Below are positions 50,804-63,586 of a DNA stretch of 64,000 nt, piece after piece. Origin of the DNA: Bacteroidota bacterium (GTDB taxonomy: Bacteria > Bacteroidota > Ignavibacteria > Kryptoniales > JAKASW01); the NCBI GenBank assembly GCA_021811615.1, contig JAJZNW010000055.1:83117-147116 (forward strand). The letters are read 5' to 3'. A model generated the notes under the pieces. That model was given only the letters and a program-made list of their open reading frames with translations, made no database searches and was not told the DNA's origin. The position numbers were made by a program, and so were the translations under genes. Within the stretch, counting starts at the first letter, position 1. The number at the start of each line of letters is the position of its first letter.

Positions 50804-53800
50804 TTATAATGTCCAGCGCAATCCCAGGTCGGCCGTCATACCGTAGGATTGCTCACTTGTCGGGAACCCTGTCCCCTGTACTACCGAGATATCCGGTTCA
50901 CCGTTCAGGTTATTGGCCTGGAAGTAAGCTTCAAGCCCGCGCCATGGGAGCTGCTGGCTTACAAGAAGATCCCATCTGACATACGCGGACCTGTAACTCC
51001 GGAGCTGCGGCCAGAAGTTCGTCCCACTGTACACGCTCCTTTGGTTTATCATGGATACGCGGGCGGAGAAGCCTTGGAAGTCGTAACCGATGGTCAGATT
51101 CACGATGTCACTCGGCTGGTCGATCAATTTGTCGGTGTAAAATGTGTCGATGTAAGATTCGACAGGAGGATAGCCGGTAATCCTCGTTATGATGAACGGG
51201 TATTGAACCTTCGAAAAGATGTGAGTGTAGTTGATGCTGAACACCAGCCCGGTCAATGGTCCCGGCAGGTACCAGAAATGAGTCTGCCAATCCACTTCAA
51301 CTCCCCAAAGATCCACGGGCCGGGGATTGTTGATATTCGTTCCGTTGAGAATATATCCCTGAGTGTAATTTGGTAATCCCGCGTAATCAGCAGGGTTGGT
51401 TATTGAGACCGCTCCTGTCGGATAAATCAGACCGGTTATCCGTTTGTAAAACGGATCAACCGTGAAGAGACCGATGGTATTGTCATAAGCCGACAACGCA
51501 AAATCGAAATTCTCCGAATGGGCGGGCTTCAGTAAAAAGTTATTCCAGTCGACCGTGCTGACAAAGACATCGATCCTCGGGGCGATTGCACTGAAATCAG
51601 GATATGTAAGCGTATTGGTGTAGGCAAGTCTCAGGTTAAGCCATGAAAGGGGTTTGTAACTCAGGTTGACATCCGGGAGCCAGTAGCCATGATACAACGA
51701 GACGGTCGTATCGGCGGACGGAAATGGAGCCGGGTAGGTATTGTTCTGATAAGCCGCAAGTATGACGGTGCCTCTGTATCTCGTCGCGAGCCCCTGATAC
51801 CTGACGCCGGGTATCAGAGTCAACTGCGGTCCTATGTTCAAAGTAGCCATCACATAGCCTGCATTTTCAAATTCATTTCCCGAATAATTGCTTGCGATGT
51901 TCCCGTACTCATCGGGCGCGTAAACGGTACCGCTAATCCACGGCTGGGTCTTTTGATAGCTGATCACCGTGTTCATCACTTGGGAGAGGAGACCTATGTT
52001 TGTCGGCGAGCCGTACATTGCGTATTGACCGTTGAGGAAGTTCCCGAAGCTCAGGCTGGGGTCGAGAAACATTCCGATTGGAAATCTATCGGTGCCGTTC
52101 GGGTTGAGGGACCATGGCTTTTGTGTCATCCACGGGAACGCCGCAATTACGTTCGATCTCGCAGCGTTGATTCCTCCTCCGTAAATGCTTCCACCGCCAT
52201 CGGAATAGTTGTAGGCTCTGTAAGTGACCTTGTAGCTCCCGCCGAACTTCAGCGAGCCGGTTATGAAATTCGATAAGTTGAAATCCCTCTTTATATCGAT
52301 TCCGCCTCTCAGATTGCGCTGGTAAGTGAAACTATTATGTGTACTGAGGGCATCCATTAGGGCATTGTTAAGGTTCACGTGCCGACCGGCTTCCTGAGCG
52401 ACCGTAGTCGGATTCGCAGTCAGCGACACATTTCCAAGCCCCGCCTGGTATTGAGAGAAACCCACGCTCCAGTAACCGGGCTGGACGTTATCGGTATACA
52501 TGTGGGCGAGTCTGACATCGACATCGAAGGAGAGAAGTTTCTGTTTGAAATTCAGGACGTTCGCGATGACATTCAGGGTCTGCGGATAATAAGAAGCACC
52601 GTAGACTATCCTGGAATCGGTGATCCCGTAACTCTGGCTGAAAGTCTCGGTTCGCTGGACGCCGCTGCTCAGGAAGTTCATTAGGTCGACCTTGCCGCTC
52701 CCCCAGTGATAATCGAGCACGAGGGTACCGTCATAAAGCTTCTTCGTAGTAGGTTGGTAATCGAGGTTCAGGCTCTGCACAATCATCTCGCCTGGATTCG
52801 AGTAGTTCGTCGGCTTCTGCAGATTGAACGACGCGCCATATATATCCGCAGTAAGGTTCAGCCGCTGTACAAGCGCCTGAGCGAGAATTCCGAACCGGTT
52901 GTGGAAGAATCGCTTCTCTATTGTTCCGGAGAATTTATAATCGCCGAGACTGTTCTGCAGATGATCATACCCACCCTGAGCCAGGAGTTCGATTTTCGGT
53001 GTCCCGTTCCGCGTCGGCTGCGCCTCTCTGATCTGGAAGTTCACCGTACCACCGAGGACGGCAGCATTCATGTCCGGGGTGACCGTCTTATAGAGTTCGA
53101 TACCGCTGAGCATGTCTGAAGAAATCATGCTCATATCGACGGCGCGATTACCCGTCTGGTTGGCCGGCATAGAAACGCCGTCGATCTCTACACGATTGTA
53201 TTTCGGCTGGAGCCCGCGTATGGCGATCATGGCCCCCTCCCCGTACGACCTGACGAGGAATACGCCGGGGAGTCTGCCGATAGACTCCGCCGCATTCGCG
53301 TCCGGAAGCTGCTGTATCCGGGCTGCGGAAACGACATTTACTATGTTATGGGAAGCGAGCTGCTGGTTGATAGCTTCATTCTGGCCGGTCGCCTGGGCAG
53401 TTACCACTACCGCCTTTCCCTTGACACCGACAGGAACGAGTTTCAGGTCTTCCACAGTCTTCACGCCGGCACGCACCTGGACCTCGACCTGCCGCGTCTT
53501 GTATCCTATATAAGTGACGCGGATGGTATATACGCCGGCAGGGATATTCGTAATATAGAAATTTCCGTTGAGACTCGTCGACGCGCCGAGGCTTGTTCCC
53601 TTCAGTAACACGTTGGCACCGGGAAGTGGACTCCCGGTCGCCGCATCCCTGACCGAACCCGATATCTTTCCCGAGCCTTCGGGAGTATCCGTGTTCTTCG
53701 GCGCAAGAGCAATCAGGTTACGATTGACAACGACCCATTTGACATCTACCTGGTTGAAGATGCTCGAAAGCGCGTCGCGCAGCGGTTCGGAATCAACCTG

Positions 53801-54028
53801 TGCGAAAATCAGTTTGTTGGTAGAAAGTTTGTTGGGGTCATAGAAGAAGGCGGCGGAGGTTTTCCTGGTAATCTCGCTTAAGGCCTGCTTGAGCGTCGCG
53901 CCATTTAACGTCAGCGATATTCGCCTGGAAAGGTTGATCTGATCGGTCACCTGATCGCCCTTTTGGGCGAAACCTACGACCTGAAGGAGGAATATCAGGG
54001 CTGCCGAAATTACACAAAGTCTTCTCAT
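50804..54028 (-). CDS. TonB-dependent transducer/receptor with STN and carboxypeptidase-regulatory domains
   Basis: 1074 aa; STN region (ISLTLNGATLKQALSEITRKTSAAFFYDPNKLSTNKLIF..VKWVVVNRNLIAL), ISGSVRDAATGSPLPGANVLLKGTSLGASTSLNGNFYITNIPAGVYTIRVTYIGY, plug NAAESIGRLPGVFLVRSYGEGAMIAIRGLQPKYNRVEIDG. Confidence 0.95.
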   Translation of the reverse strand: MRRLCVISAALIFLLQVVGFAQKGDQVTDQINLSRRISLTLNGATLKQALSEITRKTSAAFFYDPNKLSTNKLIFAQVDSEPLRDALSSIFNQVDVKWVVVNRNLIALAPKNTDTPEGSGKISGSVRDAATGSPLPGANVLLKGTSLGASTSLNGNFYITNIPAGVYTIRVTYIGYKTRQVEVQVRAGVKTVEDLKLVPVGVKGKAVVVTAQATGQNEAINQQLASHNIVNVVSAARIQQLPDANAAESIGRLPGVFLVRSYGEGAMIAIRGLQPKYNRVEIDGVSMPANQTGNRAVDMSMISSDMLSGIELYKTVTPDMNAAVLGGTVNFQIREAQPTRNGTPKIELLAQGGYDHLQNSLGDYKFSGTIEKRFFHNRFGILAQALVQRLNLTADIYGASFNLQKPTNYSNPGEMIVQSLNLDYQPTTKKLYDGTLVLDYHWGSGKVDLMNFLSSGVQRTETFSQSYGITDSRIVYGASYYPQTLNVIANVLNFKQKLLSFDVDVRLAHMYTDNVQPGYWSVGFSQYQAGLGNVSLTANPTTVAQEAGRHVNLNNALMDALSTHNSFTYQRNLRGGIDIKRDFNLSNFITGSLKFGGSYKVTYRAYNYSDGGGSIYGGGINAARSNVIAAFPWMTQKPWSLNPNGTDRFPIGMFLDPSLSFGNFLNGQYAMYGSPTNIGLLSQVMNTVISYQKTQPWISGTVYAPDEYGNIASNYSGNEFENAGYVMATLNIGPQLTLIPGVRYQGLATRYRGTVILAAYQNNTYPAPFPSADTTVSLYHGYWLPDVNLSYKPLSWLNLRLAYTNTLTYPDFSAIAPRIDVFVSTVDWNNFLLKPAHSENFDFALSAYDNTIGLFTVDPFYKRITGLIYPTGAVSITNPADYAGLPNYTQGYILNGTNINNPRPVDLWGVEVDWQTHFWYLPGPLTGLVFSINYTHIFSKVQYPFIITRITGYPPVESYIDTFYTDKLIDQPSDIVNLTIGYDFQGFSARVSMINQRSVYSGTNFWPQLRSYRSAYVRWDLLVSQQLPWRGLEAYFQANNLNGEPDISVVQGTGFPTSEQSYGMTADLGLRWTL

Positions 54029-54030
54029 GA

Positions 54031-55164
54031 TTAGTTCCTTTGTACGTTGCTCTTTTCATGAACAGGAATTGCTGCATTCCTCTCGAAGCGGATTGTGTCT
54101 CCGCTCCTCATATATCCGATGCCGAGTGAAACGGAAATTGCTTTCAAAATTGCAGCCAGTGGTTGTCGTGTTAACGAGGCAGTGACTCTTTCCCCGAGAA
54201 GCGAAGTGTCTGTGACACCGAAGGTGTACGGGTAGTCACGGCCCAGCTTGGCGAGTACATGCCTGAAGGGGGTTTTGTCGAAGATCATGGCGCCATTGAG
54301 CCAGGCAAGACTCTGCCTGACATCCGCGCGAGACGGTTCTACAACAATCCTGTTCTTGTCGGAAATGGATCTTTCCCCCGCAACGACAGGCACCCCCGTG
54401 CTGTTTAGAGAGCTGCCGGCTCGGAGTATGATTTCCCCTTCAGTCACTGTAACTTCGGTCTCTTTTTCCCCAGGCCATGCCCTGACGACGAACTCCGTCC
54501 CGATGTCCTGGATAATTCCGCAATCCGTTCGAACGATAAAGGGCGTTTTCAAATGTACGACATCGAAAAACGCCTCGCCCTTGAGCTCGACGATGCGCGA
54601 TCGTTTCCCATAAGCTTTCCCGACACGGATCGATGAGACTGAATTCAGGGTGATCCTCGTACCGTCGGCCAGCAAAAGCGTCTTATGCTCTCCCCTTCCC
54701 GTCGAACATTCCAGGCTCGCAACGGGAGAAGTGTGCCTTTTTCCGAAAAACGATTCGGCGTTGAACGCGATATAGACGGATCCTACGACCGCGATAAGGA
54801 CGGCAGCGGTCCTTGCGATAATTCCGAGGTTGAATACTCTGCCGCGCCCGCTTCGACGCTCTTGATCCGTAATTGACGGAGCGGGTGAAGTGATCGTATC
54901 CGACTGGCGCGATGTCGCCCCTTTCCACACGAGAGCCGATTCCCGGAACGAGATAGCCTGATGAAGTCTCTTGAGCGCTTCGACCTCGTCGACAGTGTGG
55001 AGGCTTTGATCCAGTGGAGAGGTAATCTGTTCACCGAGGTATGCGGTCAGCGATTCGGCGATCACCTTCAGCTCGGGATCTTCGTCCACTATTCTTCTTT
55101 CGTCGGCCGAACACTCTCCGGCTATGTACTTTCCAACAAGAACCCAATCGATGGATTTCTCCAA
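54031..55164 (-). CDS. FecR-family anti-sigma regulator
   Basis: 377 aa; N-terminal cytoplasmic helix, TM (IIARTAAVLIAVVGSVYIAF), FecR domain TGRGEHKTLLLADGTRITLNSVSSIRV..VVHLKTPFIVRTDCGIIQDIGTEFVV, C-terminal FDKTPFRHVLAKLGRDYPYTFGV. Confidence 0.93.
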   Translation of the reverse strand: MEKSIDWVLVGKYIAGECSADERRIVDEDPELKVIAESLTAYLGEQITSPLDQSLHTVDEVEALKRLHQAISFRESALVWKGATSRQSDTITSPAPSITDQERRSGRGRVFNLGIIARTAAVLIAVVGSVYIAFNAESFFGKRHTSPVASLECSTGRGEHKTLLLADGTRITLNSVSSIRVGKAYGKRSRIVELKGEAFFDVVHLKTPFIVRTDCGIIQDIGTEFVVRAWPGEKETEVTVTEGEIILRAGSSLNSTGVPVVAGERSISDKNRIVVEPSRADVRQSLAWLNGAMIFDKTPFRHVLAKLGRDYPYTFGVTDTSLLGERVTASLTRQPLAAILKAISVSLGIGYMRSGDTIRFERNAAIPVHEKSNVQRN

Positions 55165-55485
55165 CTCGCAACCTTCCTAATAATTGAACATCGGATTACA
55201 GCCTGGGCCCAACGCTATTGTCCGGTGAATCGTTTCCATCCAGAGCTTCGCCATCTCAATCGCATCGAAGCTCCATTCTTCGGTTCCGGGCGATAGTCGG
55301 ATGGCGGCTGTGGGACTTCATATTGAGTGTTGCCAGCACTCCGCCATATTTTGATGCTCCTATACAAGACGGCTGAGGATGCGCTTACCCCTACATTATT
55401 CACAGCGGAAGGGAAGATTAATTCGATCGTAACGGGAAAGGAACATACGGCGGGGGTAATGAGCCCTCACTTCGGAACGGGCTGT

Positions 55486-56079
55486 CTAACGGTGGGCTTC
55501 CGAGAACTCCGGCATACTGTTTCGAATGGCCTTCAAGGCGCGACCCATTTGTGTCTCGACCGTCTTAATCGAAACGCCGAGTCTCACGGAAATCTGCTGA
55601 TAAGTGAGTCCGTCAGTTCGACTAAGCAAAAAGATCGTTCTGCTCCCTTCCGGTAATGCCGATATCGCCTCTTCTGCAATCTTAAGTGCGGCCCTGTTAT
55701 CGAGATCGACTACAAAATCTCCTGCATTGGGATCGTTTGCGACATCATGGTCGGGGTCGATGAAACGCACATGTCGCAGATGATCCAGTGACGAGTTCTT
55801 TACGGATCTCTCGAGGAAAGCTCTGACGGAAGTGTCGATAGTGAGATCCGATTTCCCCACCCATAATCGGAAGAAGACGCCCTGGACGATATCCTCGGCA
55901 GTATCTATGGATCTCACAATTCTTTCACTGAGACGACAGAGGACCGTGTAGTATCGCAGAAAGAGCCTGTCGAACGCTTTTGAGTCACCCTGTCGAATAC
56001 GCTCGACAAGCGCCAGGTCGTTTTCCTGCAGTTCCGGCAAGACGCCCCCCCTCGGATTGATCTCCTGAGTCTGACTCAT
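55486..56079 (-). CDS. ECF-family RNA polymerase sigma factor
   Basis: 197 aa; KAFDRLFLRYYTVLCRLSERIVRSIDTAEDIVQGVFFRLW (region 2), ALPEGSRTIFLLSRTDGLTYQQISVRLGVSIKTVETQMGRALKAIR (region 4). Confidence 0.94.
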   Translation of the reverse strand: MSQTQEINPRGGVLPELQENDLALVERIRQGDSKAFDRLFLRYYTVLCRLSERIVRSIDTAEDIVQGVFFRLWVGKSDLTIDTSVRAFLERSVKNSSLDHLRHVRFIDPDHDVANDPNAGDFVVDLDNRAALKIAEEAISALPEGSRTIFLLSRTDGLTYQQISVRLGVSIKTVETQMGRALKAIRNSMPEFSEAHR

Positions 56080-56956: not shown

Positions 56957-59900
56957 CTATCCGTTTTCGCCAGTCAGTCTGGCGATCTGCAACAAGTAGA
57001 ACCTCAGGATGGCTTGCTCCTTGGGATCGAGGGGCTGTTCTTCGATCTTGATGATCTTCTCGACCTCTTTGAGGGCTCGAATAATGTTGACGGGAACTTC
57101 CACCATCGATTCGGATATCGTCGTCAAATAGTCGAGAGCCGCGGATAGAAACTCGTTCATGCTGTCGTCGAAAGAAGGCGTGACGAGGTGCGGCGCGATC
57201 CTCAATTTCCCGGGCTTGAACAGATATTCCTTCTGCACTTCTGCTGAAGACAAGGAATGCAGGGCCAGGGCCAATTCGGAAAAACTCGATACGCGTTCGT
57301 AGACCGGTTGCTCCAGAAGTCCCCAGACCTTCCCTCGCCAGTAACGCACCTCGGTCGGGACCTTCAGCAGCCCTTCTACTTCTTTGAGCCACTCTCCATC
57401 CAGATGATTTCCTATCTCCGCGCGCATTTGCTCCGCGTCAGTGTTGAAGAAATCGCGCTGCAGCAGAACCGCTACGTCGGGCCTGACTGTCGGCAGCAAC
57501 TGAGGCACAAAAGTGTCGCCCGAGAAGAACTCGGATACGTCCAGACCATGTCTTCTGAGAAGCTCCTTCTGGAATAGCGGCAGATACTTCCTCATGAGAT
57601 CGACATCTTCCCGCAGGGCGGTTAACGCCGAATTCCCCGGTGGGAAGGCCTTGTCCAGCTTGTTCACGTAAGTCAAATCAGCATCATGGTAGGTTCTCAA
57701 AGTCTGCAGCATCTCATAAACCGGAAGGCGCGGCAGTATCTGGTCGGAGATTAGAGCGTCCGGCTCCCCTTCTGCAAACTCCATCATCGAGAAATTATCT
57801 AGAGCCCGGAACAGGCCGGTCGTCAGTTGGTTTATACCCAGCACCGCGGTCTGCGACAGGTTATGAGAAATCGCACGGAGAAGACTGCCGTATTTTGACA
57901 ACGGGATCGTGCCGGCAATTCGCTGTATGATCTCCTCGCCGGCTCCCTGTCCTACTTCCTGTCCCGGGCGGGCCGTAGGACGGTCTCTGAGTGGAGGCGA
58001 CATCCTTCCCACGAAGTACGATATAATATGAAGTCCGATCACGTCTTCTTCCCGGCCGTAAAGAACCTGTCTGAAATTCTCCCTGTGGATGCCCAGGAAA
58101 TCGTCAAAGGCTTTGTCGTGCCTTCCGATTGTGATCCTCTCGAGTTCCTGTAGCCCGCGAGTCTTGAATTGAAGCCTGGTTTCCGAGAGCGGCTCGCTCG
58201 CCCTGAACGCTTCGCCTTCGTAGAACTCCTGAGCTCTTTTGACGTGGTAAACCAGCTGAGACAGCTCCTTCACAGGGAGATGGCGGCATCGTTCGAACAG
58301 ATTGCTCTGGAACGTGCGGAGATCCCCTGAAGCAAATATTCCCATAAGCGGCGTTGTCGCATAATAAGTGCTGCGGCGTGTCGACTCCTGCAGATATGCC
58401 GTGAATCTCGTTCGCGAATTTTCGTTTTGGAAGAAAAGGCGTTCGCCGGAAACGGGAGAGTAATAGCCCCCCTGGCGCTGCATCGGTTCGCCGCTCCCCA
58501 GTTTCAGTCTGATCCTCCCCGCGAGGCCGTGCGAACTCAGCCATTTCAGGAATTCAAACTTCGATTCATTGTAAAGGCTCATCCCCATAGCTTGTCCCAC
58601 TTGCTGACTGAGATCCGAACCCGCCACAAAAATCTCCGTTACGATTTCGGAGAAACGCTCACCGGTCTCCTGATTCATTCTCCTGCTCCGGAAAGCGTAA
58701 TCCCAGACTTTACTAAGATAATCCTTAATTCCCTTTACCGAATCGATATCCTCGAAGAGCGGGACTATCCACACGTTCGGAATCTCGCTGTCGTTCCTTT
58801 CCCTTATTATCTCCTCACGCTTCGATCTGAGTTTGCGATCGAGCGAGATCAGAGCCTCGGGCTTCGTCGTCATGCTGACCTGCAGGGCGAGTACCAGTCC
58901 CGGATTACCGTACTTACCGGAAAGCTCGTTTATCTCGTTTATGTTGTGGACGGTGGTATCGATTGCGAACTGATCCTGCGCGGTGATCAGCTTCTGGTGA
59001 ATGCGCGGTGTGATTACAAACCTCCTCAGCAGGTCCCTGTACGAGCTTACTTCAAGAAGGAGTTCCCTGTTCGAAAGGTTCTCCATCACGCTGGGGATCA
59101 GCGAATGGATGGCTTTCCTCAATCGCTTGTTCAATGAGAAATAATACTCGAGCGTATCCCTGCGCCTTTTGCGAAGGTCGAGCATCTTTCTTTCGAGGCG
59201 GTCATTATGCTGCCAGAGGGACATCAGCGGATCCTTGGCAAGATGAAGCTTCATGCCGAGGTTCCTCAACCTCCCCGGTCTCATATTGACGGGCAGCGTT
59301 CCGCGATATCTTTTCTCAAGCTGGACGGTGAGCCGCGTGATCCCCGACAGGAGAGAGGAGAACCTGTTGTTGCTTTCGCGAAGCGTCTCGATCTCCTTAA
59401 CAAGCGGCTCATCGATCCTGATGCCTGAATCTGCTCTGAGCAAAGCCTGAACAATCCTCGCCTGCCGGGCAACATTCTGAATGAGTACTGCGCTGACGAG
59501 GCTCTGTCCCTGTCCCGAAGGACGGCTGCTGCCGTCCCAATCCCCCCAGAAGGAAAGGAACGTCTCATAACGCTCGTCCGAGTGCAGGTTCAGATAATTC
59601 TCGACCGCCATCATGGAGTCCATGTCGAGGATCAGCTCATCCGGCTCCTCGTTCGACATGATCGGCACGTTCAGGCCGAAATATTCTCTTACGAGATCGG
59701 TTCTGATCCTCCGGTAGAACTGCTCACCCAGCTCGCGATCGTGCGAAACTGCGTCGATCAACCTGTCGAACAACGCTTCGGTCTGCATCGAATACATCTG
59801 AGTCGGATGTACAGTGCGATCGAACAGCCTAACGCGGAAGGCTTCTTTTCTCCTCGATAAATCATCCTTATAGAATTCTTTTTCGAGAAATTCGCTCGTC

Positions 59901-62548
59901 GATGCACCGCCCGAGAGATACAGGTTGGCGGTCTCGTTTATTATATTCTCACGGTCTTCGAATCTCTTCCGAAACACCGAGAGCCTGAACGGGAGAAACT
60001 CCGTTTCAATCCTCTTCCTGTGAAGATCGTATTCCGCTTCGAGATCGTATCTGCCGACGAAATCCCTCACCACGTCTTTGACGTTTTGGCCGATGGCCGA
60101 CTCGATTTCCTTCCATCGCGCGGCGCCGTCGACTATCCTGACCTCCCTGCGAAGGTTAATCTCTTTATAACTGAAGAACTTCCGGTTATAGCTGGACGCT
60201 TCTTCCGCGATCATCCTGTTGAGGTCTATGAGCACACGGCGTGTCTTCCTGGCGAGTACCTCCGCGCCATCGGTTCCGCCCAGCGTGAGCCGGAAGGATT
60301 TCCTTCCGGTATCGAAACCTTTTTCCGTGCGTGCGAAAGTGGAAAGCGGAACGAGCCCAACGCCTTGTCTTGCCAGGCCTGATGCCAGCCAGTCGAGGGA
60401 AAGGCCTGCGGGGAGCTTGTTCACCACCATCTTGGGATACATGCTCCCGACCGGCGGATCTATCCTGATGTCGAACTGATTTCTTTCGGCCGGCAGATTT
60501 TCGGCGGCTTCGAGAAGAGCATCGCTCCTCGATTTGAATATCCTGTTCCTGAGCCGGTAATAGGCGTTTACGCTCTCGACTCTGTTTCTGTAAAAGAGGT
60601 AAGCGAGTGCGATCGCTCCGACGTTCGACTCCAGCGACGACAACACTGATTTGAATTTTTCAAAAAGCTCCCTGTTTCGTATCTCGACTACTGAAAGACG
60701 GGCGCCAGCGTATGAATCGGTCTTCGACATGGAATGAACCGTCACCACGAACGCGGCTTCCTCTTCCGTTATGTAACCCGCGCGAGCCAGGTCATCCGCA
60801 GTCTGGCGAATCGTCGGGATATGGTCAAGTGTCTCAGAAGGCTTCACATTCTGGTACGACAGGTCGTCTATGATGAAGACTTTACGGCCGACGAGCCACT
60901 TGATGAGCCGGACGACGTCATCTTGTCTGAATATCTGTCCAGTTGCATTATGAGGGTTATTTAAGACTACCGCGCCGTGCTTTCCCCAGTTCGGATCGGA
61001 TGCGAGGCGCATCTGGACCGATTGGATGATGCCATCGACGTCGAGTTGAAAATCCTTCGTCAGGGAGACCGGCAGGTTCTTCGGGAAACAGTGCTCGTAC
61101 GTCCAGCTCAAGTCCGGTATGACGACCTCATCTATGCCGCAATGAAAGCCGAGAAGGCTCAGGACAGTTCTCGACGAGCCGCTTGCCACCAACGAGTTCT
61201 CGGGCTTGTATTCAGGGTGGTGGTTCAGAAACGCGCTCAAATAGCTGCGGCTCAGCTCAGATACCCACTCTCGTACTTGTATGTTTCGCCCTATTTCATC
61301 CATGAGCGCGGTCGCGTTGAGATCGCGGAAGATGTCGACATGGCTGCGTTGGGCCAGGTGCATAGCTCTCGCCAGATGGGAGGCCGTCTTGTCTCCGAAA
61401 TTCGCGATCGATTTCTCGACCAGGTTGCTCCCCTCGTCAAGGATTTCGCTTAATTTGTCCTCTGCACGAGAGACGATTCTGCCCACTGATTCGAGTGCGG
61501 GTACACCGGCTATGCCTTCGTATTCGGCCTCGAGCCCCATCTCAGGTTGGGACCTTCGCGCTTCCGGAAGTGTGCTCAGCAGGTAATCGAGCAATTCAAT
61601 CTCGGTCGACGATGGGGTCCCCTTGAGTTGGAAGTGCACCGTCTCGATGACCTGAAGAAAATCCGAATTACCTGCGATGAAAGTGAGCGAGAAATTCCTG
61701 AGATGAGGGCTGAACACGCCGGGGGTCATAAACCTTATGACCCGGTCCATCATCTTAGCTTCGCGTGAAAGCGAGAGATGGTTCGGTGCGTCGTTGGCTT
61801 CTATTATCAGAAGCGGGCTTGAAAGGCTGATTTGCCTCAGACGCCGCCTCGATTCCTCGGAAACCGTCTTGCCCATAAGCAAAAATATCGGAGCCGGCGG
61901 ATGTAAATCGAAGTGCAACACAAGCTGTTGTACCATGACCGATTCATCATCATCGGACTGGACAAGAGTAATGTCCCTGAAGTCTCTAAGAAACGGCGGG
62001 ATCTCGATTCCAAAAAGGAATATCGTGACGGGCGATGCCGTCATGAAATCCGACAGCGATTGAAATAATACTCTGAGCGCTTCAAGTTTACCGCCCGAAG
62101 CGAGGATTATTTCACGCTTGCCGGTCTTCTCGCCGAGATCGTAGGAGAGCGGCTCCTGTTCTTCTTTCGAGAGCCAGTCGCTGAATCTCCGCACCAAAGG
62201 GTGCGGCTTCGATTTCAGGAACCCTCCGCGCGGTGAATAGGGTGCACTCTTCTTAACAAGATTCGCAAGAAAGTCAACCTTACGCTTCTCTTCCGGCTGC
62301 AACCCGAGCTGTTCGATTATTTCATCCGGATTGTCCACCCCGAAGCGCTCGTCGGAGACATCGATCCCGAGAGCAAGACGGAAATAGGCAGAGTAGAGCC
62401 GGTCGTCCTGCACCGGGTTGCCGATATGAAAATTGACACGTTCATCCGGCGGTACCGGCGACATCGCCGTGGCCTCGCTTATTTCAGATACTTTCGCCGC
62501 GCGGATCGGTTTTAACCTGAAATACTCTAACGGGTCTTTATTTCCCAA
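56957..62548 (-). CDS. 1863-aa multidomain protein: degenerate aminotransferase-like domain + PLP aminotransferase domain + PEP-carboxylase-like domain
   Basis: Aminotransferase motifs ASGSSRTVLSLLG, AVVLNNPHNATGQIF, VFIIDDLSYQ, TVHSMSKTDSYAGARLSVVE (candidate PLP Lys609); PEPC-like motifs RTVHPTQ (res. 911-917), FWGDWDGSSRP, GNPGLVLALQVSMTTKPEALISL, VPLFEDIDSV, EIFVAGSDLSQQVGQAMGMSLYNESKFEFLKW, LKLGSGEPMQRQGGYYSP. Confidence 0.75.
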   Translation of the reverse strand: MGNKDPLEYFRLKPIRAAKVSEISEATAMSPVPPDERVNFHIGNPVQDDRLYSAYFRLALGIDVSDERFGVDNPDEIIEQLGLQPEEKRKVDFLANLVKKSAPYSPRGGFLKSKPHPLVRRFSDWLSKEEQEPLSYDLGEKTGKREIILASGGKLEALRVLFQSLSDFMTASPVTIFLFGIEIPPFLRDFRDITLVQSDDDESVMVQQLVLHFDLHPPAPIFLLMGKTVSEESRRRLRQISLSSPLLIIEANDAPNHLSLSREAKMMDRVIRFMTPGVFSPHLRNFSLTFIAGNSDFLQVIETVHFQLKGTPSSTEIELLDYLLSTLPEARRSQPEMGLEAEYEGIAGVPALESVGRIVSRAEDKLSEILDEGSNLVEKSIANFGDKTASHLARAMHLAQRSHVDIFRDLNATALMDEIGRNIQVREWVSELSRSYLSAFLNHHPEYKPENSLVASGSSRTVLSLLGFHCGIDEVVIPDLSWTYEHCFPKNLPVSLTKDFQLDVDGIIQSVQMRLASDPNWGKHGAVVLNNPHNATGQIFRQDDVVRLIKWLVGRKVFIIDDLSYQNVKPSETLDHIPTIRQTADDLARAGYITEEEAAFVVTVHSMSKTDSYAGARLSVVEIRNRELFEKFKSVLSSLESNVGAIALAYLFYRNRVESVNAYYRLRNRIFKSRSDALLEAAENLPAERNQFDIRIDPPVGSMYPKMVVNKLPAGLSLDWLASGLARQGVGLVPLSTFARTEKGFDTGRKSFRLTLGGTDGAEVLARKTRRVLIDLNRMIAEEASSYNRKFFSYKEINLRREVRIVDGAARWKEIESAIGQNVKDVVRDFVGRYDLEAEYDLHRKRIETEFLPFRLSVFRKRFEDRENIINETANLYLSGGASTSEFLEKEFYKDDLSRRKEAFRVRLFDRTVHPTQMYSMQTEALFDRLIDAVSHDRELGEQFYRRIRTDLVREYFGLNVPIMSNEEPDELILDMDSMMAVENYLNLHSDERYETFLSFWGDWDGSSRPSGQGQSLVSAVLIQNVARQARIVQALLRADSGIRIDEPLVKEIETLRESNNRFSSLLSGITRLTVQLEKRYRGTLPVNMRPGRLRNLGMKLHLAKDPLMSLWQHNDRLERKMLDLRKRRRDTLEYYFSLNKRLRKAIHSLIPSVMENLSNRELLLEVSSYRDLLRRFVITPRIHQKLITAQDQFAIDTTVHNINEINELSGKYGNPGLVLALQVSMTTKPEALISLDRKLRSKREEIIRERNDSEIPNVWIVPLFEDIDSVKGIKDYLSKVWDYAFRSRRMNQETGERFSEIVTEIFVAGSDLSQQVGQAMGMSLYNESKFEFLKWLSSHGLAGRIRLKLGSGEPMQRQGGYYSPVSGERLFFQNENSRTRFTAYLQESTRRSTYYATTPLMGIFASGDLRTFQSNLFERCRHLPVKELSQLVYHVKRAQEFYEGEAFRASEPLSETRLQFKTRGLQELERITIGRHDKAFDDFLGIHRENFRQVLYGREEDVIGLHIISYFVGRMSPPLRDRPTARPGQEVGQGAGEEIIQRIAGTIPLSKYGSLLRAISHNLSQTAVLGINQLTTGLFRALDNFSMMEFAEGEPDALISDQILPRLPVYEMLQTLRTYHDADLTYVNKLDKAFPPGNSALTALREDVDLMRKYLPLFQKELLRRHGLDVSEFFSGDTFVPQLLPTVRPDVAVLLQRDFFNTDAEQMRAEIGNHLDGEWLKEVEGLLKVPTEVRYWRGKVWGLLEQPVYERVSSFSELALALHSLSSAEVQKEYLFKPGKLRIAPHLVTPSFDDSMNEFLSAALDYLTTISESMVEVPVNIIRALKEVEKIIKIEEQPLDPKEQAILRFYLLQIARLTGENG

Positions 62549-62575: not shown

Positions 62576-63586
62576 TTACTTCTCTTTGGACTTCCGGGTC
62601 GAAGTAGTAAGAGAGTTCTGAAGGAAATTCTGGAGTGCGCCCGCGAGTTCCGAACCCAAAGACATATCTTTTGACGACAACGAAACGACCGTCTTCGCGT
62701 TTCGAAGTGCCTGACTTGCCTCAGCGAGGCGGGCGGCCTGGGGAGTCAGTATGAGAAGTTCAGGGTTTGCCTTGAGGAGTTCCAGTTCCTGCCTCTCATA
62801 TTCGAGCTGCATGTTCTTCCGTTTCAGTTCCTCCTCGACGCGCTTCCTGGAAATCTCAGCCTCTTTCTCGACTTCGGCCTTCTTCAGTTCGAATCTCTTC
62901 AGCTCCAGCTGATTCTCCAGGAGAGCGACCTGCTCATCGGCCTGAAATTTCCATTTGGCAGCCGCGATCCTCCCCTTCTGGCTCAGCTCTTCGGTCTGTT
63001 CAAGTATCCTGGCAGACTCCTGCTGTCGAATCGCTTCCGCGATTTTCGTGTCTACAATATCGACCGACATTACCGCGACAGATATGACTTCCAAACCGAA
63101 TCTTTGTTTGCTTATACGGATCTTCTCATCCAGGTAACTATAAATCTTCTCGGAAGAGAGTTCCTCGATCTCGAACTTCTCCGTAAATTCCCTGACAAAA
63201 CTCTGCACCACCGTCTCTAACTCGCTCGCGGCCGCTGCCACCGCAGTCTTGTTCCATCCGCCGACTTTTATGAGCGTTTCAATGTTCTCTGCTGATAACG
63301 CGACCGACAGTGCAAGCCGCACCTTGATGTCCAGGTTGCCCTTTGCAGCCGCGTCCACGTTAATCTCAGATGAGTGGACAGCTCTCGGCAGCACGAGGCT
63401 GAAATGCCGCGCATAAAATCTTCCTTTTCTCAACCCGATCTTTCCATGCATTTCGTAAAGCACGATCTGATCGGGCCGCCTCAAACGATATTCGTACACC
63501 AAATAAAGTATTACGAGCGCTAAGACTATTAATAGGAACCACATTTTAAAACTCCCGATGAAGCTTAGTATTATTTCGGCGAACAA
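62576..63586 (-). CDS. SPFH/Band 7 (prohibitin/flotillin-like) membrane protein
   Basis: 336 aa; N-terminal TM (MWFLLIVLALVILYLVY), NIETLIKVGGWNKTAVAAAASELETVVQSFVREFTEKFEIEEL, FGLEVISVAVMSVDIVDTKIAEAIRQQESARI then long charged coiled coil. Confidence 0.82.
   Translation of the reverse strand: MFAEIILSFIGSFKMWFLLIVLALVILYLVYEYRLRRPDQIVLYEMHGKIGLRKGRFYARHFSLVLPRAVHSSEINVDAAAKGNLDIKVRLALSVALSAENIETLIKVGGWNKTAVAAAASELETVVQSFVREFTEKFEIEELSSEKIYSYLDEKIRISKQRFGLEVISVAVMSVDIVDTKIAEAIRQQESARILEQTEELSQKGRIAAAKWKFQADEQVALLENQLELKRFELKKAEVEKEAEISRKRVEEELKRKNMQLEYERQELELLKANPELLILTPQAARLAEASQALRNAKTVVSLSSKDMSLGSELAGALQNFLQNSLTTSTRKSKEK

Follow-up and report, generated by a model that had tools for sequence, protein, structure and literature searches.

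The locus described here raises the question of whether a domain that resembles PEPC, but departs from the E. coli and maize PEPCs in several of its loops, is a working enzyme or a pseudoenzyme. It lies in a 64,000-nucleotide stretch of a Bacteroidota contig (JAJZNW010000055.1), hereafter the window, in which a sequence-only reading had drawn attention to the interval 58349-59851. This corresponds to residues 900-1400 of a fusion protein, and the motifs HPTQ, WGDWDGSSRP, PLFE, AGSDLSQQ and LKLGSGEPMQRQGGYYSP (residues 1348-1365) were all located inside it, as that reading had reported. The product of the fusion gene consists of three parts, namely a lysine-less aminotransferase-like domain, a complete aminotransferase and a PEPC-like domain, and is conserved.

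The fusion gene, its family and its partner

The fusion gene, its parts and its upstream neighbour are arranged as follows:

62576..63586, minus strand: SPFH/Band_7-type protein with an N-terminal hydrophobic segment, identified by ORF clustering, tblastn and Band_7 matches in orthologs
56957..62548, minus strand: fusion gene, encoding 1,863 aa and defined by the open frame and full-length orthologs, with a TTG start 27 bp past the SPFH stop
61559..62548, minus strand: degenerate aminotransferase-like alpha/beta domain (residues 1-330), with seven strands in the AlphaFold model and without the conserved catalytic Lys
61274..61558, minus strand: linker (residues 331-425), with pLDDT < 50 over much of 331-402, the fastest evolving part (dN/dS 0.155)
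60182..61273, minus strand: fold-type I aminotransferase (residues 426-789), from PF00155, VIA and ortholog conservation
56960..60181, minus strand: PEPC-fold domain (residues 790-1863), nearest in sequence to archaeal-type PEPC, from the model, Foldseek, VIA and a profile match

The frame runs for 1,863 codons without interruption. Measured against L033, the closest ortholog, the PEPC-like domain has a dN/dS of 0.065, the aminotransferase one of 0.053 and the first domain one of 0.109; all ratios refer to this pair, dS being saturated in more distant ones. The open frame and the ratio for the PEPC-like domain bear out the earlier argument against random decay. Full-length orthologs, 40-92% identical, are found in genomes named as Ignavibacteria, Melioribacter or Stygiobacter, as Bryobacteraceae and other Acidobacteria, as Calditrichia or Caldithrix and as KSB1, with one further full-length copy in a single Caldisericaceae MAG; most of these genomes are MAGs, and single taxonomic placements may reflect binning errors. 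Conservation counts given below refer to 53 full-length orthologous sequences. At L013, L062, L072, L077 and L078 the fusion frame is broken into a pair of ORFs that overlap or adjoin each other, perhaps owing to frameshifts in the assembly, and two long antisense ORFs within the window's gene (58427-59137 and 60977-61453, plus strand) are probably chance frames.

No free-standing PEPC-like domain was found in the genome itself, in 296 genomes of its phylum, where the search used a single full-length protein as query and distant copies could escape, or in 247 genomes of the phylum of genome G311. In the last set the domain occurs in three of the 247, in frames of 1,877, 2,026 and 1,657 aa, which are of fusion size or represent a probably truncated copy. 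No paper describing a fusion of this type was found in the literature searched. A role as a defence system was also considered and rejected, there being no PADLOC match.

The N-terminal 789 residues were modelled by AlphaFold with a mean pLDDT of 88.7 and match fold-type I aminotransferases with VIA Z scores of 29-32. The aminotransferase domain is also the only part of the window's protein recognised by Pfam (residues 437-760; PF00155, 53.4 bits against a cut-off of 19.7), and NCBIfam adds nothing beyond weak aminotransferase matches. Within the second unit K609, D562, Y565, N531, R617 and R753 are invariant (53/53); as judged from these residues, 426-789 is an aminotransferase with a complete PLP-binding set, although its substrate cannot be read from sequence. 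By contrast, no Lys of the first unit is conserved in columns 270-283 of the ortholog alignment, the expected site of the SxSK loop. The seven predicted strands of this unit follow an aminotransferase-like order, and its profile aligns with residues 425-785 in register but weakly (P 0.13), such that common descent of the two units is suggested by predicted structure.

The SPFH/Band_7-type gene lies directly upstream of the fusion gene in 55 loci by ORF clustering, and tblastn recovers it in nine of the 12 loci where clustering showed a gap; neither method found it at three Bryobacteraceae loci (L054, L071 and L087). All other neighbours recur in nine of 74 loci at most. Among 25 orthologs of the partner, 17 match PF01145 (Band_7), the best at 1.3e-9, and the window's copy, the only member of its family in its own genome, gives no match to this model and falls below Pfam detection. 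Downstream of the fusion gene, at 50804-56079 on the minus strand, sigma-factor-like, FecR-like and TonB-receptor-like genes stand in a row, named by their appearance in sequence.

Relationship of the C-terminal domain to PEPC

The proposed kinship with PEPC was upheld by both structure and profile comparison. A model of residues 790-1863 (pLDDT 79.8, pTM 0.81) gave 16 PDB matches at E <= 1e-3 in Foldseek, every one a PEPC. In VIA superpositions, 482 residues were aligned with the archaeal-type enzyme 3odm at 3.5 A and 18% identity (Z 19.1), as against about 535-660 residues at 4-6 A and 12-14% identity for bacterial and plant PEPCs; overall, identity to any PEPC is 11-18%. Similarly, hhalign scored the domain at 43.0 against 3ODM (P 1.7e-4), where the maximum of 60 shuffles was 24.6, whereas the score of 24.3 against E. 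coli PEPC lies below the shuffle maximum of 29.6. This profile signal sits in barrel strands 5-8, which alone give P 3.4e-6 against 3ODM. Strands 1-4 score 12.4 against a shuffle maximum of 17.6, which gives no support from sequence statistics, and their mapping is accordingly a proposal from structure and motifs. The model contains exactly eight strands of at least three residues within an all-helical surround, starting at A1 positions 120, 209, 388, 432, 471, 516, 557 and 622, and each barrel strand ends in, or close to, a PEPC motif, with the motifs ordered as they are in PEPC.

Curated models detect this relationship at most marginally. Neither Pfam nor NCBIfam recognises PEPC in the window's protein, which has no match to PF00311 at E <= 1. 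Three orthologs each match PF00311 or PF14010 below the cut-offs, with best E values of 6.9e-4 and 0.0012, respectively, and several match one or the other at E of about 0.001-0.02 across the PLFE/GSD region. Whole-genome searches of fusion-size frames likewise place the PF00311 matches at profile positions 466-621 and the PF14010 matches at 166-242, corresponding to this same region; orthologs reach 14-16 bits against the PF00311 cut-off of 22.4 bits, and the best ortholog frames 14-14.6 bits against the PF14010 cut-off of 25 bits. An alignment of the PEPC-like domain used as a profile against PDB sequences returned chance matches only. Two further matches are recorded here as observations: ANG-1 Pfam matches in 10 orthologs, with E down to 3.8e-4, were assumed to be chance, and a related genome holds a 704-aa frame (L104, G208:C6:86269-86640) that matches PF00311 weakly (E 7.6e-4, profile positions 66-182) and is possibly another divergent PEPC-like protein. 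Archaeal-type PEPC is about 530 aa long; the domain, at 1,074 aa, carries large added segments. It appears to represent a third, uncatalogued branch of PEPC.

Active-site residues and competing readings

The following motifs were placed within the domain:

59798..59809, minus strand: HPTQ (914-917); catalytic His914 equals E. coli H138 and H in 3ODM
59519..59548, minus strand: WGDWDGSSRP (1001-1010); D1003, D1005 and G1006 equal E. coli D252, D254 and G255; DFEG in 3ODM
58994..59017, minus strand: VITPRIHQ; R1182 equals E. coli R396; VRVTPRIPN in 3ODM; mapped by motif and strand order only
58748..58762, minus strand: PLFED (PLFE 1263-1266); metal Glu1266 equals E. coli E506 and E in 3ODM
58601..58624, minus strand: AGSDLSQQ (1309-1316); metal Asp1312 equals D543, with Q1315 at the K546 position (Met in 3ODM)
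58466..58507, minus strand: LKLGSGEPMQRQGG; R1358 equals R587, with L1350 and S1352 at H579 and R581 (Leu and Cys in 3ODM)
58304..58318, minus strand: RTFQS, barrel strand 8; TFTFQS in 3ODM
57965..57988, minus strand: RDRPTARP; R1521, R1523 and R1527 invariant; region of the E. coli GSRP (R699) loop, an approximate placement where model pLDDT is < 50
57863..57883, minus strand: LLRAISH; R1558 equals E. coli R713 (LRAIPW); PRAISF in 3ODM
56960..56971, minus strand: C-terminal GENG; Gly is the very last residue, as in the RNTG terminus of PEPC

The roles of the metal-binding Glu and Asp, the catalytic His and carboxyphosphate in PEPC have been reviewed (PMC10176493), and a PLoS Pathogens paper (PMC3894211) counts the GRGGxxGRGG Arg and the C-terminal peptide among the components of its active site. 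The equivalents of H138, E506, D543, R396, R587 and R713 are invariant in all 53 full-length orthologs, confirming that the histidine and metal ligands are kept (H914, E1266 and D1312). For R396 and R713, the individual roles are those ascribed to these residues in E. coli PEPC. The HPTQ form is also found in plant PEPC, E. coli Q613 corresponds to Gln in 3ODM and to Q1414 of the fusion, and all intact copies in the ortholog alignment terminate in (N/S)G with Gly last, behind a conserved helix. The other retained positions of the comparison with E. coli PEPC and 3ODM are likewise unchanged in all 53 sequences. The sole checked residue that is common to both PEPC types yet missing here is G588, whose position is occupied by Gln in 51 of 53 sequences.

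Neither the FHGRGGxxGRGGG nor the SDSxKD loop of bacterial and plant PEPC is kept in the window's protein or its orthologs, and the sequence-only reading had taken this as loss of the substrate-binding Arg and Lys residues, implying changed chemistry or a ligand-binding pseudoenzyme. That step does not hold, as R587 is kept and the canonical arginines R396 (in ITPRI) and R713 (in LLRAIS) lie elsewhere in the domain, an outcome which that reading had itself named as refuting it. In gapless alignments of E. coli PEPC, 3ODM and the window's protein, the two loops read LFHGRGGSIGRGG, PILGCGSLPFRGH and LKLGSGEPMQRQG, and GYSDSAKDAG, ARSDTAMSYG and AGSDLSQQVG, respectively; the supposedly lost R253, K546, H579 and R581 are missing from 3ODM too. 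The pseudoenzyme argument arose because the comparison used the wrong PEPC type, being confined to bacterial and plant enzymes, and the archaeal-type comparison rules it out as a necessary reading. Changed chemistry may still apply but need not be invoked.

The reading put forward here, quite plausible though held at slightly less than even confidence, is that the fusion is a catalytically competent enzyme with two activities, rather than a decayed PEPC, converting PEP to oxaloacetate and then to aspartate. The PEPC-like domain would bind Mg2+, PEP and bicarbonate and form oxaloacetate by the carboxyphosphate route, the adjoining aminotransferase would convert this to aspartate, the lysine-less domain would take the place of the partner subunit found in ordinary aminotransferase dimers, and the SPFH protein would keep the enzyme at the membrane. 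In its favour are the PEPC fold, the archaeal-type sequence signal, the invariant catalytic residues of both enzyme units, the terminal Gly and the low dN/dS; against it stand the low identity to any PEPC, the scores under both Pfam cut-offs, the lack of profile support for barrel strands 1-4, the Gln at the G588 position and the frequency of ATP-dependent PEPCK in the hosts. This seems the most economical mechanism, with a different substrate as its serious rival.

Under that main rival, which is somewhat less likely, the domain is active and metal-dependent but works on another substrate, catalysing for instance the (de)carboxylation of a 2-oxo acid or of an enol phosphate other than PEP, supplied or consumed by the aminotransferase. 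The family-specific invariants absent from both PEPC types, SRPSGQG past DWDG and QRQGG around R587, are consistent with this, as are the large added segments and the co-occurrence of canonical PEPC with the fusion. It is countered by the retention of every tested residue common to both PEPC types bar G588, and of the chain-terminal Gly. Thirty-five host genomes were surveyed; identical match coordinates indicate that five appear twice, which reduces the set to 30 distinct hosts. Canonical PEPC is present in seven of these, including the window's own genome, where a separate bacterial-type copy is encoded (L001, G000:C121:15719-18439); pyruvate carboxylase was found in none of the 30, and ATP-dependent PEPCK in 28, so that an anaplerotic need is not evident. 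From these counts the fusion is no general replacement for PEPC across its hosts, although it may still act as a substitute.

It is unlikely that the PEPC-like domain is instead a ligand-binding pseudoenzyme that senses a metabolite and in this way controls either the aminotransferase or its SPFH partner. Loops unlike those of E. coli and maize PEPC, together with the constant fusion to an enzyme and pairing with a membrane scaffold, would suit such a role, but all 53 sequences keep the catalytic His, both metal ligands, the three Arg and the C-terminal Gly, and the residues counted as lost are also missing in archaeal-type PEPC. A remnant or sequencing artefact of canonical PEPC, for which no supporting point was found, can be given virtually no credence: the 53 sequences share the same non-E. 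coli loops down to 40% identity, dN/dS is low and a separate canonical PEPC exists in the genome.

Bolder, and rather unlikely as a whole, is the view that a third branch of the PEPC superfamily forms a single-chain CO2-to-amino-acid enzyme. It would invariably be joined to an aminotransferase pseudo-dimer within the same chain, with an SPFH protein of its own keeping it at the membrane; bicarbonate would be fixed onto PEP, or onto an enol phosphate related to it, and the product passed straight to transamination. If active, the fusion would link the fixation of carbon to the making of amino acids within a single membrane-held chain. Most of its hosts lack PEPC and, in the sample searched, all lack pyruvate carboxylase.

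Comparison with known systems

The SPFH partner resembles SPFH/Band_7 proteins (PF01145) in its N-terminal hydrophobic segment, SPFH domain and charged, coiled-coil-like C-terminal half, but differs from the family at large in being a divergent subfamily tied to the fusion gene. The second aminotransferase unit shares Lys609, the PLP-site residues and the fold (Z about 29-32) with fold-type I aminotransferases (PF00155) such as LysN, AspAT and BNA3, from which the fusion is distinguished by having a lysine-less domain ahead of this unit and a PEPC-like domain behind it in one chain.

With bacterial and plant PEPC (PF00311; E. coli 1JQN and maize) the C-terminal domain has in common the fold, H138, E506, D543, R396, R587, R713 and the terminal Gly, but it lacks the full GRGGxxGRGG loop, K546 and H579, is 11-14% identical and has no significant profile match to the E. 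coli enzyme. With archaeal-type PEPC (PF14010; Clostridium perfringens 3ODM) it shares the barrel order, the motifs TPRI, PL.ED, SD, GxGxxxxR, TFQS and RAIS, and the absence of K546, H579 and R581 equivalents, differing in being about 18% identical, under the Pfam cut-off, twice as long and fused to aminotransferase domains. Pfam catalogues these two types of PEPC; the fusion family is covered by neither curated model but retains their shared active-site residues, and therefore helps to separate the residues essential to PEPC chemistry from those specific to one type.
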